Assembly: GCA_016191815.1 (NCBI GenBank)
Contig: JACPVI010000081.1
Span: 62,001-126,000 of the forward strand
Source: Myxococcales bacterium
GTDB lineage: Bacteria; Myxococcota; Myxococcia; Myxococcales; Myxococcaceae
DNA length: 64,000 bases
Reading direction: 5' to 3'
The notes beneath the pieces were generated by a model. The model saw nothing but the letters and a program-made list of their open reading frames with translations, was not told the DNA's origin and did not search any database. This document shows positions 5,806-20,424 of this stretch, piece by piece (the stretch's first letter is position 1; every line of letters begins with the position of its first letter). The translations under genes and the position numbers were made by a program.

Positions 5806-6161
5806 GGGGGCGAAAAGGGTTCGACGGGGGCACAGATGTCCCAGACGCGTGTCGAGCATCGCTCGGAGCTCGTAAATCCCTGGGCGAAAGCACAAAAGCC
5901 AACGACAACGTTGAGCTGGCGCTCGCGGCCTAACAAGCCGTGACACCCGGTCCTCCCGATCTCGGCCCGTGGGTCGGGGCAGGGCCGTCAGAATGCGGGC
6001 TGGCTGCCGGGTGAGCCTGGGCGCTCGGCGGCGAGATCACCAGGAACCTCTGCCGGGGATCCCGCCCACGGGAGGCTCGGCGGAGCAAGAAACGTGGGCT
6101 ACACACGTAGGGTCGACGGACGGATGGCTTCCGGACGGGGGTTCGATTCCCCCCGCCTCCA
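5806..6161 (+). ncRNA. ssrA: tmRNA (transfer-messenger RNA)
   Basis: The 5' end GGGGGCG pairs with CGCCTCC at 6154-6160 to form the acceptor stem (one G-U), followed by discriminator A 6161. The T-arm GGGGTTCGATTCCCC lies just before it, and the conserved 5' block GTTCGACGGGGGCACAGATG is at 5819-5838. The mRNA-like part reads ANDNVELALAA then TAA (5898-5933), a typical proteolysis tag ending in ALAA. A pseudoknot-rich region follows. CCA is not encoded after 6161, so it must be added by the tRNA nucleotidyltransferase. tmRNA rescues stalled ribosomes with SmpB; smpB is not in this window. The exact resume codon is uncertain by one residue. Confidence 0.95.
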
Positions 6162-6182
6162 TGCCGTAAGTAGTGGAAGTAG

Positions 6183-13079: not shown

Positions 13080-14363
13080 GTGGGCATCCGGGGACAGCTT
13101 GCGGTGCTGGTGGGCGGCCTGGTGGCCATCTGCCTGATCGGCGCGGCGTTCGCCGCCGCCGAGAACCGCCGGCAGGAAGAGATCGAGCAGATGCGCATCC
13201 GCAGCGAGCGCGTGCTCGACGCGATCGGCGTCACAGTCGCGGTCTTCGTCGCCGAGAACGACATGGCCGGCCTGGACACCCTGATCGCCCACGTGAGCGA
13301 GCCTGGCCGCTACCCGGATCTCCGGGAGATCTCCGTCCTCGACGCCGAGACGCGCGTGCTCGCCCACAGCCAGCCCGAGCGCTTCAATCAGCTCGCCAGC
13401 GACGACTTCAGCCGCTCCGCGGTGGTCCACGACGGCGTGGTGTGGACGTGCGATGGGAAGCTCCTCAAGGTCGCCGTCCCCGCGGTCTCCGGCCTGCGGT
13501 GGGCCACGGTGACCGCTTCGTATTCGCTCGAGCGGCTCGAGGCCGCGGTGGCCGCCTCGCGAACCCGGTGGCTCCTCATGTCGCTCGGATTGGCCGCCAC
13601 CTTGGCGCTGGCGCTCTTCCTCGGACTCGATCGCTTGGTGGTGCGGCCGCTCCGATCCCTGCAGCAGGCAGCCCGCAGGATGGGAGAGGGGGATCTCAAG
13701 TCTCGGGTGCCTCCCCTGCGGACCCACGAGCTGGGCGAGCTGTCCGGCGCCTTCAACCGGATGGCCTCCGCGCTCCAGCACGAGCGCGACAACCTCGAGC
13801 ACACCGTGTCGGAGCGGACCCGTGAGCTGAAGCAGGCGAACGAGCGGCTGGAGAGGTTGGCGGTCACCGACGGCCTCACCGGCATCTTCAACCACCGCCG
13901 CTTCCAGGAGGCGCTGGCCCAGGAAGTGCTCAGGTCCACCCGCTCCTCGAGGCCGGTCTCGGTGCTGATGGCCGACGTCGACCACTTCAAGCGGTTCAAC
14001 GACACCAACGGACACCCGGCGGGCGACGAGCTGTTGAGGCGCCTGGCCTCGGTGCTGGCCGCCGAGCTGCGGGCCACCGACCTCCTGGCCCGGTACGGCG
14101 GCGAGGAGTTCGCGGTCGTCCTGCCTGACACCGGCAAGGCCGAGGCCCTTCAGGCCGCCGAACGGTTGCGATCGGCGGTGGACCGGCAGCTAAACGCCGA
14201 GGGCGAGCATACTCGCCGGGTGAGCATCAGCGTCGGGGTGGCCACCTTCGGCACCGACGGCGATGGGCCGCAGGCGTTGCTCGCAGCCGCCGACCGTGCC
14301 CTCTACGTCGCGAAGAACCGCGGGCGCAACCAGGTGGTGGCCGCGAGCCTGGAGGTGGGTTGA
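13080..14363 (+). CDS. Membrane diguanylate cyclase (sensor-HAMP-GGDEF)
   Basis: 427 residues from GTG 13080. A first membrane helix (LAVLVGGLVAICLIGAAFAA), a periplasmic sensor of about 130 residues, a second helix (WLLMSLGLAATLALALFLG), a HAMP linker (VVRPLRSLQQAARRMGEGDL), a short coiled coil and a GGDEF domain follow in order. The active-site loop is GGEEF at residues 340-344, and RATD five residues before it is the inhibitory I-site, so the enzyme should be active and feedback-inhibited by c-di-GMP. The stop codon overlaps the ATG of the next gene (TGATG), which encodes a PhnD-like binding lipoprotein, so the two are almost certainly made together and may form a ligand-sensing pair. Confidence 0.93.
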   Translation: MGIRGQLAVLVGGLVAICLIGAAFAAAENRRQEEIEQMRIRSERVLDAIGVTVAVFVAENDMAGLDTLIAHVSEPGRYPDLREISVLDAETRVLAHSQPERFNQLASDDFSRSAVVHDGVVWTCDGKLLKVAVPAVSGLRWATVTASYSLERLEAAVAASRTRWLLMSLGLAATLALALFLGLDRLVVRPLRSLQQAARRMGEGDLKSRVPPLRTHELGELSGAFNRMASALQHERDNLEHTVSERTRELKQANERLERLAVTDGLTGIFNHRRFQEALAQEVLRSTRSSRPVSVLMADVDHFKRFNDTNGHPAGDELLRRLASVLAAELRATDLLARYGGEEFAVVLPDTGKAEALQAAERLRSAVDRQLNAEGEHTRRVSISVGVATFGTDGDGPQALLAAADRALYVAKNRGRNQVVAASLEVG

Positions 14364-15274
14364 TGAGCCGCGTGCTGTTCGCACTCTGCGCCCTGGCCGC
14401 CTGCGACTCGCCGCGCCCGCCCGTGGCTCCGCCCCTTCCCCACCCGGCCACCCCGGTGAAGTTCGTTCCCCCCTCCACCTTCGATCGGCTGCGGATCTCG
14501 CTCACTCCCCACCTCGATCCGCAGACCCTCGAGCTGGCCCACCGGCCGCTCAACGAGTATCTCTCGCGCGGGCTCTCGGTTCCGGTCGAGCTGAAGGTGG
14601 CCTCCAGCTATGACGAGCTGGGAAAGATGCTCGCCCGCGAGGAGATCGACCTCGCCGAGTTCAGCCCGTTCGCCTACGTCCGCGCCGGCAAGAGCGGAGT
14701 GCGGATGCAGCCTTTGGTCACCACCATCTCCGACGGCTCCGCCACCGCCGCCGCCTACATCCTGGTCAACGCGGAGAGCTCCTTCCGCACGCTGGAAGAT
14801 CTCAAAGGGCGCTCCTTCGCCTTCGTAGACCCGGCCTCGACCTCCGGCTTTCTCTACCCGACCAAGGTGATGCTCGACCGGGGCATCGAGCCGAAGACGT
14901 TCTTCTCCCGCACCGAGTTTTTGGGCAACCACGAGGCGGTGCTGCTCGCGGTGCACGAGGGCCGCTTCGACGCCGGGGCCACCTACCAGGGCGCGCTCCG
15001 CTCCCTCCAGCGCTCCCGCGGGGTGGACCCGCTCTCTTTCAGGATCATCGCCAAGTCGCCGCGCACCCCGAGGGACATCTTCTGCGCCCGCGAGGGCCTG
15101 CCCGAGCCGGTGATGGAGGAGCTCAAGCGCCTGCTGCTCGCGATCTCGGTGCTCACCCCGGAGGGACGCGCGGTGCTCCGTCCGCTGAACGTCAACGGCT
15201 TCGTCCTCGCCGACGACCGCCAGTTCGACCCCGTGCGGGAGGTGGATGCGGCCCTGAATGGAGGCGCCCGCTGA
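14363..15274 (+). CDS. PhnD-like periplasmic phosphate/phosphonate-type binding lipoprotein
   Basis: 303 residues starting MSRVLFALCALAACDSP, a lipoprotein signal with lipobox LAAC. The rest follows the PhnD/TauA-like periplasmic binding fold: RISLTPHLDPQTLELAHRPL, VELKVASSYDELGKMLAREE, LAEFSPFAYV, then DLKGRSFAFVDPASTSGFLY and NHEAVLLAVHEGRFDAGATY. No ABC permease or ATPase gene is adjacent, so it is not an obvious transport component. It is translationally coupled to the diguanylate cyclase upstream, which suggests that ligand binding in the periplasm modulates cyclase activity. The ligand is unknown; PhnD-fold proteins also bind compounds other than phosphonate. Confidence 0.85.
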   Translation: MSRVLFALCALAACDSPRPPVAPPLPHPATPVKFVPPSTFDRLRISLTPHLDPQTLELAHRPLNEYLSRGLSVPVELKVASSYDELGKMLAREEIDLAEFSPFAYVRAGKSGVRMQPLVTTISDGSATAAAYILVNAESSFRTLEDLKGRSFAFVDPASTSGFLYPTKVMLDRGIEPKTFFSRTEFLGNHEAVLLAVHEGRFDAGATYQGALRSLQRSRGVDPLSFRIIAKSPRTPRDIFCAREGLPEPVMEELKRLLLAISVLTPEGRAVLRPLNVNGFVLADDRQFDPVREVDAALNGGAR

Positions 15275-15357: not shown

Positions 15358-17653
<2,296 letters not shown>

Positions 17654-17699: not shown

Positions 17700-18491
17700 T
17701 CAAGTGCCCGGCATCGGCTCGCGGATGCGCTCGATACCCCGCGACAGACCGGTGGACTCGTCGATGTCTACCAGCACCCCCTGCACGTAGACCTGCCCCT
17801 TCGCCACCTCGAAGCCCGCCGGGCGCTGCGTGAGGAAGCGCTCGACCGAGAGCTCCTTCTTGATGCCGATCACCGAGTCCAACGGGCCACACATGCCGGC
17901 GTCGGTGATGAAGGCCGTCCCCCCAGGGAGGATTCGCTCGTCCGCCGTCTGCACGTGCGTGTGCGAGCCGATCACCGCCGAGACCTTGCCGTCCAGGTAG
18001 ACCCCGATCGCGTTCTTCTCGCTCGTCGCCTCGGCATGGATGTCGACCACGATGCAGGAGGTGGACTTCCTCAGCTCCTCGACCAGCCGCAGCCCCACCC
18101 GGAAGGGATCGTCCAGCGGCCGCATGAAGACGCGCCCCTCCAGGTTGATCACCCCGAGCTTTCTCCCACCCCGCGTCTCCACCAGCGTGTGGCCCCTTCC
18201 CGGCGCGCCCTCGGGGTAGTTCGCCGGCCGCAACAGCCGCACCGGCTGCTGCTCGAGGAAGGGGAGGATCTGCTTCTTCGACCAGATGTGGTTCCCCGAG
18301 GTCAAAAGGTCCACTTCGGCCGACAGGAGCGCCTGCGCGCCCTCCGGCGTGACGCCCACCCCGGTCTCCGAGTTCTCCGCGTTGGCGACTACCAGATCCG
18401 CGCTCGTCCGCGCGATCAGCCGCGGCAACAGCGCCTTCACCGCCTGCACGCCGACCTTGCCCACCACGTCGCCGAGGAAGAGGACCTTCAC
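17700..18491 (-). CDS. YmdB-family metallophosphoesterase (2',3'-cyclic-nucleotide phosphodiesterase type)
   Basis: 263 residues of the TIGR00282/YmdB family. Metal-binding motifs are in order: FLGDVVGKVGVQAVKALL, VANAENSETGVGVTPEGA, LTSGNHIWSKKQIL, then IVVDIHAEATSEKNAIGVYL and VIGSHTHVQTADERILPGG, with AFITDAGMCGPLDSVIG near the end. In Bacillus, YmdB hydrolyses 2',3'-cAMP and affects biofilm versus motility choice; the role in myxobacteria is not established here. It lies 24 bp downstream of the 5-formyl-THF cyclo-ligase gene on the same strand and is probably cotranscribed with it. Confidence 0.93.
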   Translation of the reverse strand: MKVLFLGDVVGKVGVQAVKALLPRLIARTSADLVVANAENSETGVGVTPEGAQALLSAEVDLLTSGNHIWSKKQILPFLEQQPVRLLRPANYPEGAPGRGHTLVETRGGRKLGVINLEGRVFMRPLDDPFRVGLRLVEELRKSTSCIVVDIHAEATSEKNAIGVYLDGKVSAVIGSHTHVQTADERILPGGTAFITDAGMCGPLDSVIGIKKELSVERFLTQRPAGFEVAKGQVYVQGVLVDIDESTGLSRGIERIREPMPGT

Positions 18492-18515
18492 GCGGCTGCT
18501 ATCGCAGGTGTGCCC

Positions 18516-19139
18516 TCAGGTGTCCAGGTAGTCCCAGCTCCGGAACAGCCCCTTGAAGCTCTCGCCCTCGGTCACCACCAGGTCCATGTCCACGTCCTCA
18601 CCGTCGGAGGGCAGCGCATCGACCACCTGGTCGGAGAAAGCCAGGCCCACTCGCCGGCTCCGCGGTGACGCCGCCCTGAGCGTGGCGTCGTAGTAGCCGC
18701 CGCCTCGGCCCAGGCGCTTGCCCTCACGCGTGAACGCCAGCCCCGGCACCGCGAAGAGGTCGATGTCCTCGAGCGGCACCAACTCCGCCGCGCTCGAGGG
18801 CTCCCGCACCCCCAGCCGCCCCGGCTCCAGCTCGCTCTCGGAGGTGATCGCCCTGAACGAGAGCACCCTCCCGTGCACGTGCGAGAGCGGGTAGCACACC
18901 ACCTTCCCCTCGGAGATCGCCGCAGTGAGGATGTCCCGCGTCGGCACCTCCCCCCGGATCGGCGCGTACAGCGCCACCGTCCGCGCCCGCTCGAAATAGG
19001 GCGTCGCGAGCAAGCGCGCCTGCACCTTGAGCCCCCGCTGCTCGATCAGCTCCGGAGCAACCGCCTTGCGCCGCTGCGTCAGCTCCTCGCGCAAGCTCGC
19101 CTTCCTGAGGGCTGCCTCGTCCACCATCATCCCGTTCAC
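18516..19139 (-). CDS. 5-formyltetrahydrofolate cyclo-ligase
   Basis: 207 residues. The enzyme converts 5-formyl-THF to 5,10-methenyl-THF using ATP. Seen are the N-terminal LREELTQRRKAVAPE helix, ALYAPIRGEVPTRDIL, and the phosphate-binding signature GKRLGRGGGYYDATL, followed by VGLAFSDQVVDALPSDGEDV. Two further Met codons (residues 4 and 5) could serve as start. The 6S RNA lies directly upstream on the same strand, the ssrS-ygfA order known from E. coli and many other proteobacteria, where both are cotranscribed. The YmdB-type gene follows. Confidence 0.93.
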   Translation of the reverse strand: MNGMMVDEAALRKASLREELTQRRKAVAPELIEQRGLKVQARLLATPYFERARTVALYAPIRGEVPTRDILTAAISEGKVVCYPLSHVHGRVLSFRAITSESELEPGRLGVREPSSAAELVPLEDIDLFAVPGLAFTREGKRLGRGGGYYDATLRAASPRSRRVGLAFSDQVVDALPSDGEDVDMDLVVTEGESFKGLFRSWDYLDT

Positions 19140-19164
19140 CGCTCCCCCCGCGCCCTAGAAAAAG

Positions 19165-19375
19165 TCCCCCGCCGTCTGGCCGTGTGCGCAGCGTCTATTG
19201 AACCCTTCAGTTTCAGGTGGGGACCTGTGTTCGGAGAGCCTTAGGCTTCCCTCTCCAAGGAGGGCTTGCTCATGGCCCCCGAGGCGGCCCCCGGTGCCAA
19301 CGTATCGGTTCGAATTTCCGCTGCCCATCACGCACCCCGCAGGGGACAGCCCTTCCTATGCCATGGCCCTCCTAA
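19165..19375 (-). ncRNA. ssrS: 6S RNA
   Basis: Read on the minus strand, the segment shows the landmarks of proteobacterial 6S RNA in order. GGGCTGTCCCCTG lies near the 5' end (about 19338-19350). CCTCGGGGGCCATGAGCAAG then leads out of the open central bubble, followed by GGGAAGCCTAAGGCTC. CCCCACCTGAAACTGAAGGG and GGTTCAA follow near the 3' end. 6S RNA mimics an open promoter and sequesters sigma-70 RNA polymerase in stationary phase. Its position just upstream of the 5-formyl-THF cyclo-ligase gene supports the call. The ends are estimated by alignment in memory to the E. coli molecule and may be off by 10-20 nt; no clear promoter was found. Confidence 0.78.
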
Positions 19376-19491
19376 CTTCTTGAAGTTGTTGACAAAAAAA
19401 TCAAGAGCCTTCACCTGATGATAGGGAGAGCGTCCCCAAGGGTCAAGGCAGGCCAAAAAGGGCTCCCTCATCGTCTACACTCGCACAGCCC

Positions 19492-20424
19492 ATGGCCAGT
19501 CCTCCGCGATGGTGCCTCGCCCTCTTGGTCGGCTTCGCCCCGGCGGCGAGGGGCGCCGAGGGCGTGGAGGTCTCCGGCCTCTTCCGCGCCGGGGAGCTGG
19601 GCAGCCTGGAGCTCTCCACCGAGGGAGGGCGAGTGGCCGGCCGCTATCGGGGCGGCGGGGCCTGTGCCGAGCTCTTCGAGGGCCAGCGCGTGCTCGAGGG
19701 CGCCGTGGAGGAGAGCGTGCTGGTGGGCCACCTCACCCTCTGCCAGACCGGCGCCGCCTGCGGCCAGAAGGCATACCCGGTGCTGGTGTTCTACAACTCG
19801 GTGGACGGGGTCTTGACCACCGACGTGAAGCTCGATCCCGCCTGCGCCTCGCCCGCGCTCAAGGGCTCGCGGCTCACCTTCGTTCCCGCCGGCGAGGAGC
19901 GCAGCCCGCCGAAGAACCCCGGCTCGGCCTCCCAGGTGGCCAAGAAGAAGCTCGACCCGAAGAAGAACCTGGAATTGCAGAAGCAGGCGCTGATGAACGG
20001 CCAGCGGCTGCTCGACGCCGGCGACTATGCAGGTGCCGCCGAGCAGTTCGAGCTGGGAGTCAGCTACAACGAGGCCAACTGGACCGCTCACTTCGGGCTC
20101 GGGCTCGCCGAGTTCCGCAAGGGCGACGCCAGGCGGGCCATCGCCAGCTACGAACGCGCCCGCGAGCTGGCCAAGGAGGCAAAACAGGAGGACCCCGACC
20201 TCTACTACAACCTCGCCTGTGCCCATAGCCGGGTGGGCGATCGCAAGGCGGCTCTGTCGAGCCTCCGGCAGGCGGTGAAGCTGGGCTTCGCGCTGCCCGA
20301 GGCGATGAGCGCCGACGCCGACCTCAACCGGCTGCTCCGCGACGACCCTGAGTTCAAGAAGCTGGTCAACCAAGCCTGGACGCTCAAGGACAAAAGCGGG
20401 AAGAAGGGCGAGAGCAAGCTCTGA
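19492..20424 (+). CDS. Secreted TPR-repeat protein
   Basis: 310 residues with a signal peptide (WCLALLVGFAPAARGAEG). Residues about 25-130 form a beta-rich domain with four Cys (GGACAEL, TLCQTGAACG, DPACASPALKG). A Lys-rich linker follows, then TPRs: QKQALMNGQRLLDAGDYAGA, TAHFGLGLAEFRKGDARRAI and LYYNLACAHSRVGDRKAALS, and a final VKLGFALPEAMSADADLNRL typical of TPR proteins. It is probably a periplasmic scaffold. A Ser/Thr kinase gene begins two bases after its stop, so the pair is an operon. Partner unknown. Confidence 0.8.
   Translation: MASPPRWCLALLVGFAPAARGAEGVEVSGLFRAGELGSLELSTEGGRVAGRYRGGGACAELFEGQRVLEGAVEESVLVGHLTLCQTGAACGQKAYPVLVFYNSVDGVLTTDVKLDPACASPALKGSRLTFVPAGEERSPPKNPGSASQVAKKKLDPKKNLELQKQALMNGQRLLDAGDYAGAAEQFELGVSYNEANWTAHFGLGLAEFRKGDARRAIASYERARELAKEAKQEDPDLYYNLACAHSRVGDRKAALSSLRQAVKLGFALPEAMSADADLNRLLRDDPEFKKLVNQAWTLKDKSGKKGESKL

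Follow-up and report, generated by a model that had tools for sequence, protein, structure and literature searches.

A single-copy 6S RNA match upstream of the 5-formyl-THF cyclo-ligase gene in a Myxococcales bacterium, and its conservation in Myxococcota

The 6S RNA locus

The window analyzed here is a 64-kb stretch of DNA from a Myxococcales genome (6.77 Mb, 89 contigs). Scanning the whole window with cmscan gave two Rfam matches above the cut-off, a tmRNA and a 6S RNA. The 6S match (RF00013) lies on the minus strand at 19162-19348 and scores 74.6 bits (E 7.4e-13), which is 28 bits above the family's gathering score of 46.4 bits, used here as the cut-off. It spans model positions 1-187 of 187, was obtained again in a repeat scan on 801 bases, and is the only such match in the genome. 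In a single-sequence fold, none of 200 dinucleotide shuffles is as stable as the RNA (z -3.86). The original prediction had placed a 6S RNA on this strand at 19165-19375, and the covariance-model search bears out both the RNA and its orientation; the interval was close, overshooting the match by 27 nt at the RNA's 5' end and falling 3 nt short of it at the 3' end. The tmRNA gene is found at 5806-6164 on the plus strand and encodes the tag peptide ANDNVELALAA. The features of the 6S locus are as follows.

17700-18491, minus strand: YmdB-type phosphodiesterase (PF13277, E 8.4e-102), 24 nt after ygfA
18516-19139, minus strand: 5-formyl-THF cyclo-ligase, ygfA/fau (PF01812, E 1.8e-39)
19159-19163, minus strand: U-run (TTTTT in the sequence) directly after the closing stem, proposed as a terminator-like 6S 3' end
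19162-19348, minus strand: 6S RNA (ssrS), full-length RF00013 match by cmscan, single in the genome, with covariation over 36 sequences
19164-19172, minus strand: 3' arm of the 6S closing stem, GCGGGGGAC, pairing with 19339-19347 in the single-sequence fold
19304-19317, plus strand: predicted pRNA, 5'-AUCGGUUCGAAUUU..., templated from U45 of 6S on the 5' side of the central bubble
19349-19411, minus strand: predicted leader at the 5' end of the 6S primary transcript, roughly 60 nt, its end placed from the promoter
19418-19446, minus strand: predicted sigma70-type promoter, TTGACC-17-TATCAT, 10 of 12 matches

Conservation and covariation in Myxococcota

To place the locus in its phylum, we used an even sample of 146 Myxococcota genomes and accepted matches at E values up to 0.001. 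A 6S match was present in 119 of them, the window's own genome included, always one per genome, and 116 of these matches were above the cut-off. The figure of 119 out of 146 is a lower bound because stricter filters were applied in this survey. Eleven of the 27 missed genomes were searched for the cyclo-ligase gene, which seven had; at these seven loci, an above-cut-off 6S RNA stood directly before the gene in five, a 46.3-bit match was found in one, and the last, where the gene begins just 123 bases into its contig, was without a match. Neither the cyclo-ligase nor 6S was found in the other four at that sensitivity.

The locus comparison comprises the window and 118 others, some with flanks shortened by contig ends: 63 from the same family, 24 from the same order, one from the same class and 30 others. 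For covariation, 36 of the 119 sequences were picked for spread, and RNAalifold recovered the 6S rod from them. Paired cells amount to 92.1%, compared with 77.6% in shuffles and 39.6-49.8% in slid controls, and 26 of 33 pairs show change on both sides; none of 500 shuffles reaches any of the five measures. Covariation across these sequences thereby backs a rod with a closing stem, a central bubble and an apical stem. The outer helix, in which eight of the nine closing-stem pairs are covered, is paired in 96.8% of cells.

At the sequence level, a 19-base core of the window's 6S RNA, GAAATTCGAACCGATACGT, is identical in 34 stretches. The carriers are mostly Myxococcus (Myxococcus xanthus AM003 among the examples), Corallococcus, Pyxidicoccus, Archangium, Hyalangium and Myxococcaceae MAGs. 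Other Myxococcaceae 6S RNAs differ from that of the window in loop and apical-stem lengths and in the length of the leader. A record titled Comamonas sp. KCTC 72670 also has the myxobacterial 6S core and is probably a mislabelled genome.

Predicted promoter, leader and pRNA start site

The predicted promoter TTGACC-17-TATCAT is the sole promoter-like site that we found in 18400-19600 (mean 0.0 in 50 shuffles), and its -10 box ends 69 nt upstream of the 6S model start. Promoters with at least 9 of 12 matches occur within 130 nt upstream in 78 of the 119 loci, against about four expected from single-base shuffles. The distance is also a family trait, as the promoter lies 67-78 nt before the model start in 50 family genomes, window included; in others of the family it lies at 23-29 nt (ten genomes), 42 nt (one) or 89 nt (one). 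Given this distance between promoter and 6S, a leader is probably part of the primary transcript and would measure about 60 nt in the window; the predicted promoter leads us to expect transcription to start near 19411.

Two candidate elements in the leader were considered and rejected. The predicted leader contains a 14-bp perfect palindrome at 19374-19387 (AACTTCTTGAAGTT on the plus strand). As a conserved leader element, the palindrome AACTTCAAGAAGTT was dropped, since the 46 distinct family leaders from 50 genomes gave no consensus structure (energy 0.0). The other candidate was a boxA, GGCTCTTGA, near the predicted start; it lacks one base relative to boxA, is not common to the aligned family leaders and falls outside the criteria of the motif scan. 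Over the 75 nt that precede 6S in the window, that scan found neither GCTCTTT nor G[CTG]TCTTTNA.

Within the RNA itself, CCGAU occupies 6S positions 41-45, which we take to be the place of the E. coli pRNA start. CCGAT occurs in the corresponding part of 6S at 73 of the 119 loci, comprising the window, 62 of the 63 family-mates and further genomes. Elsewhere the part reads CCGAC, CCAAN or further variants, with five loci showing none of the patterns. By analogy, the pRNA would be expected to begin with AUCGG, copied from the 5' strand of the central bubble.

The 3' end of the RNA

In the window, TTTTTCT follows the closing stem directly. At least five T within the 8 nt across the 6S 3' end were counted at 92 of the 119 loci, compared with 0.8% of random windows. 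The 8 nt include two bases of the model, and the random windows were taken from anywhere in the same loci, coding DNA included. This U-run is present in 59 of 63 family-mates, and the 27 loci that lack it are four family-mates, four of the 24 order-mates and 19 of the 31 more distant loci. It is found at 78 of the 97 loci with a downstream ygfA and also at 14 of the 22 loci without one, and is therefore not specific to ygfA.

A terminator scan of 18400-19600 that required a 3-8 nt loop turned up no ordinary terminator, either between 6S and ygfA or elsewhere in that interval. Of the 119 loci, 18 have a local hairpin terminator within 90 nt, and 14 of these 18 belong to genomes from outside the family. 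The position of the U-run right after the closing stem suggests that this stem is where 6S ends, with ygfA and ymdB reached by leak-through. Several observations speak against such a terminator: the arms of the closing stem are about 166 nt apart, unlike those of an ordinary terminator hairpin, 27 loci lack the U-run, and the U-run also occurs where ygfA is not downstream. We consider it an evenly balanced proposition that the closing stem and U-run end 6S, with a minority of read-through into ygfA-ymdB.

Neighboring genes and synteny

The gene next downstream of 6S on the same strand is the PF01812 gene at 18516-19139, so the 6S-ygfA order that had been predicted is present. The first in-frame start codon of ygfA is a GTG, 22 nt beyond the 6S 3' end; over the 97 loci with the gene, the median distance to the first in-frame start is 19 nt. 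The YmdB-type phosphodiesterase that had been proposed nearby is likewise found, as the PF13277 gene at 17700-18491, and probably shares one transcription unit with ygfA. A ThiC gene (15917-17653) points toward ymdB and ygfA from the opposite side, and the gene upstream of 6S is a divergent TPR protein (19492-20424, plus strand). Farther away, at 13080-14363 on the plus strand, a diguanylate cyclase gene (HAMP-GGDEF) shares 4 bases with the gene for a phosphonate-binding-type periplasmic protein (14360-15274), a possible sensor pair.

Directly downstream and on the same strand, ygfA is found at 97 of the 119 loci, namely the window, 60 of 63 family-mates, 20 of 24 order-mates, the single class-mate and 15 of the 30 others. 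The original prediction had treated this order as a gammaproteobacterial arrangement notable in a myxobacterium, which does not hold up against its frequency in the phylum; moreover, the available part of PMC9130861 counts some delta-proteobacteria among the groups that have ygfA next to 6S. In one genome (locus L031, genome G115), the arrangement is inverted, with the cyclo-ligase gene immediately before 6S and encoded on the other strand.

YmdB is found behind ygfA at 51 of the 119 loci, and the fetched flank of 29 of the 63 family-mates had no YmdB match. Among the 22 loci without ygfA directly downstream, two of which are cut within 1 kb, nine have a YmdB open frame about 1.6-2.0 kb downstream on the same strand. 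RNase Y lies between 6S and ymdB at all four distant loci tested (L032, L033, L040 and L042), and ZapA lies upstream of 6S at all three tested (L033, L039 and L042). The window has no zapA directly upstream of 6S, and its genome gave no match to the ZapA family or to RNase_Y_N; with the genome rated 98.76% complete, these absences are likely, not certain. The simplest reading is that there are signs of the window's YmdB being a remnant of a zapA-6S-(ygfA)-rny-ymdB neighborhood. The presence of ymdB is best read as inherited linkage rather than as a functional partnership.

Comparison with known systems

In E. coli K-12, the ssrS-fau/ygfA locus is alike in having the same family model, the cyclo-ligase next on the same strand and CCGAT in the central region. 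It differs from the window in having zapA directly upstream of 6S and a gap of 75 nt, rather than 22 nt, between 6S and fau/ygfA. After the annotated 6S 3' end, E. coli reads CCTTCTTATC, which is less T-rich than the clean T-run of the window. Termination of E. coli 6S was reportedly found to be Rho-dependent by Chae in 2011. The zapA-6S-rny-ymdB arrangement of distant Myxococcota resembles the window in having ymdB downstream of 6S in the same orientation (9 of 119 loci), but it has RNase Y in between and ZapA upstream, for neither of which the window's genome has a match.

The 6S genes of lactic acid bacteria (Firmicutes) are described as bounded by an intrinsic terminator, with Rho-independent terminators predicted at these loci; the terminator is not stated to be the 6S closing stem in the available part of that paper (PMC8414754). 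As for gene order, the accessible text of PMC9130861, citing Barrick 2005 and Wehner 2014, places ygfA beside 6S in alpha- and gamma-proteobacteria and in some beta- and delta-proteobacteria or Firmicutes. For other groups, a zapA-6S-ygfA order or a 5'-UTR position appears in the available parts of PMC7641849, PMC9788540 and PMC4064990. Since the part of PMC9130861 available already gives ygfA-6S adjacency in delta-proteobacteria, neither the RNA nor the order is new.

Among the matches listed in the open-licence literature, no study had 6S function in Myxococcota as its subject by title, and we did not find there the long Myxococcota leader, the closing-stem U-run, the RNase Y variant or the boxA-like leader described below. 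No related open-licence paper, judged by title, was found on 6S RNA with boxA or antitermination, nor was one found on 6S RNA in Anaeromyxobacter.

A boxA-like leader in a sister family

In a sister family (f2), all 17 genomes have a hairpin followed by GCTCTTT between the promoter and 6S. The set consists of 12 genomes with a 6S match in the survey and five rescued from among the misses (loci L107, L085, L066, L145, L084, L086, L102, L094, L128, L098, L103, L061 and L167-L171). Within 75 nt before 6S, GCTCTTT occurs at 13 of the 119 loci, these being the 12 sampled f2 loci and G115, compared with 0.4% in the control; the longer pattern G[CTG]TCTTTNA occurs at 11 of the 12. The A two bases after GCTCTTT is present in 12 of the 17 genomes and missing in four of the five rescued genomes and in G068.

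The hairpin is paired in 85.0% of cells, compared with 75.1% in shuffles and 31.3-49.0% in slid versions, and it shows 18 both-sided cells against 8.5 in shuffles (reached by 0 of 500, as is its covariation score), these values coming from 17 sequences of which 12 were those on which the hairpin was first spotted. On two further measures the hairpin is unexceptional: 132 of 500 shuffles score as high for pairs with both-sided change and 45 of 500 for further types. The column pair 17-34 is unpaired in 8 of the 17.

In the rRNA leader of E. coli, a hairpin (boxB) is followed by boxA, GCUCUUU. The rRNA leaders of the relatives have the boxA core GGUCUUUGAAAAC, and their boxA reads CGGTCTTTGAAAAC in 17 of 17 copies from eight genomes, one of them f2; the match of the f2 GCUCUUU to its own boxA is therefore partial. 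We hold with moderate confidence that the f2 6S leader resembles the boxB-boxA antitermination signal of rRNA. The hairpin with TTTTTT could equally act as a weak terminator or pause in some members.

A broader proposal would have the Myxococcota 6S gene built like a stable-RNA operon, with the closing stem and U-run doubling as a ygfA-ymdB attenuator and the rRNA-type leader of f2 letting Nus factors shield 6S transcription from Rho. We put this forward tentatively and judge it unlikely as a whole. The part on an rRNA-type leader leaves out the window, whose own leader is not of that type.

Proposed function and alternative explanations

By imitating an open promoter, 6S RNA binds the housekeeping form of the RNA polymerase holoenzyme under nutrient shortage; synthesis of a short pRNA by the polymerase, templated by the central bubble's 5' strand, sets the RNA free. 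The window's 6S RNA would be expected to work in the same way. Transcription from about 19411 would yield a precursor whose leader, about 60 nt long, would later be trimmed. Most polymerases would stop at the closing stem and U-run, so that the 6S stem itself would serve as the terminator, and a minority would continue into ygfA, 22 nt on, and ymdB. The original prediction went further and linked the operon to control of RNA polymerase by growth phase. We do not follow it there, as the tie was drawn from position and the U-run suggests that many transcripts stop before ygfA.

The closeness of the first in-frame ygfA start, both in the window and in the median of the 97 loci, together with a strong stem and a U-run that could form a read-through switch, would also suit an element whose main role is in cis: a structured leader at the 5' end of the ygfA-ymdB mRNA, serving as an attenuator, and not a free RNA that binds polymerase. 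This is improbable in our estimation, because the RNA is kept at the 22 loci that do not have ygfA directly downstream (the two cut within 1 kb among them), the next gene being RNase Y in the four such loci examined, and the U-run persists at 14 of the 22. The conserved features are, besides, those of the 6S model, central bubble included. An RNA of another kind that is alike only in shape would have a precedent in Ms1, a core-polymerase binder described as structurally related to 6S in the available part of PMC9130861. All 187 RF00013 positions are matched at a score well above the cut-off, however, and the next overlapping Rfam match, LPR10, reaches 20.8 bits against a cut-off of 69, so we regard such a relative as very improbable here. 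We give still less credence to a decayed, non-transcribed remnant: the stems are intact, the predicted promoter and candidate pRNA start site are common to relatives, and conservation is family-wide.

Overall, the best explanation of the minus-strand locus is a genuine single-copy 6S RNA, a conclusion in which we have high confidence. It is an ordinary, well-conserved copy, and the RNA, its place and its likely function are of a kind already known.

Implications for Myxococcota

The 6S gene of this genome is thus a normal one. The pairing of ssrS with ygfA is widespread among Myxococcota, in which the response to starvation can be multicellular development. The U-run and the boxA-like leader of the relatives amount to predictions about how an abundant regulatory RNA may be started, protected and ended, and about how it may be coupled to ygfA.
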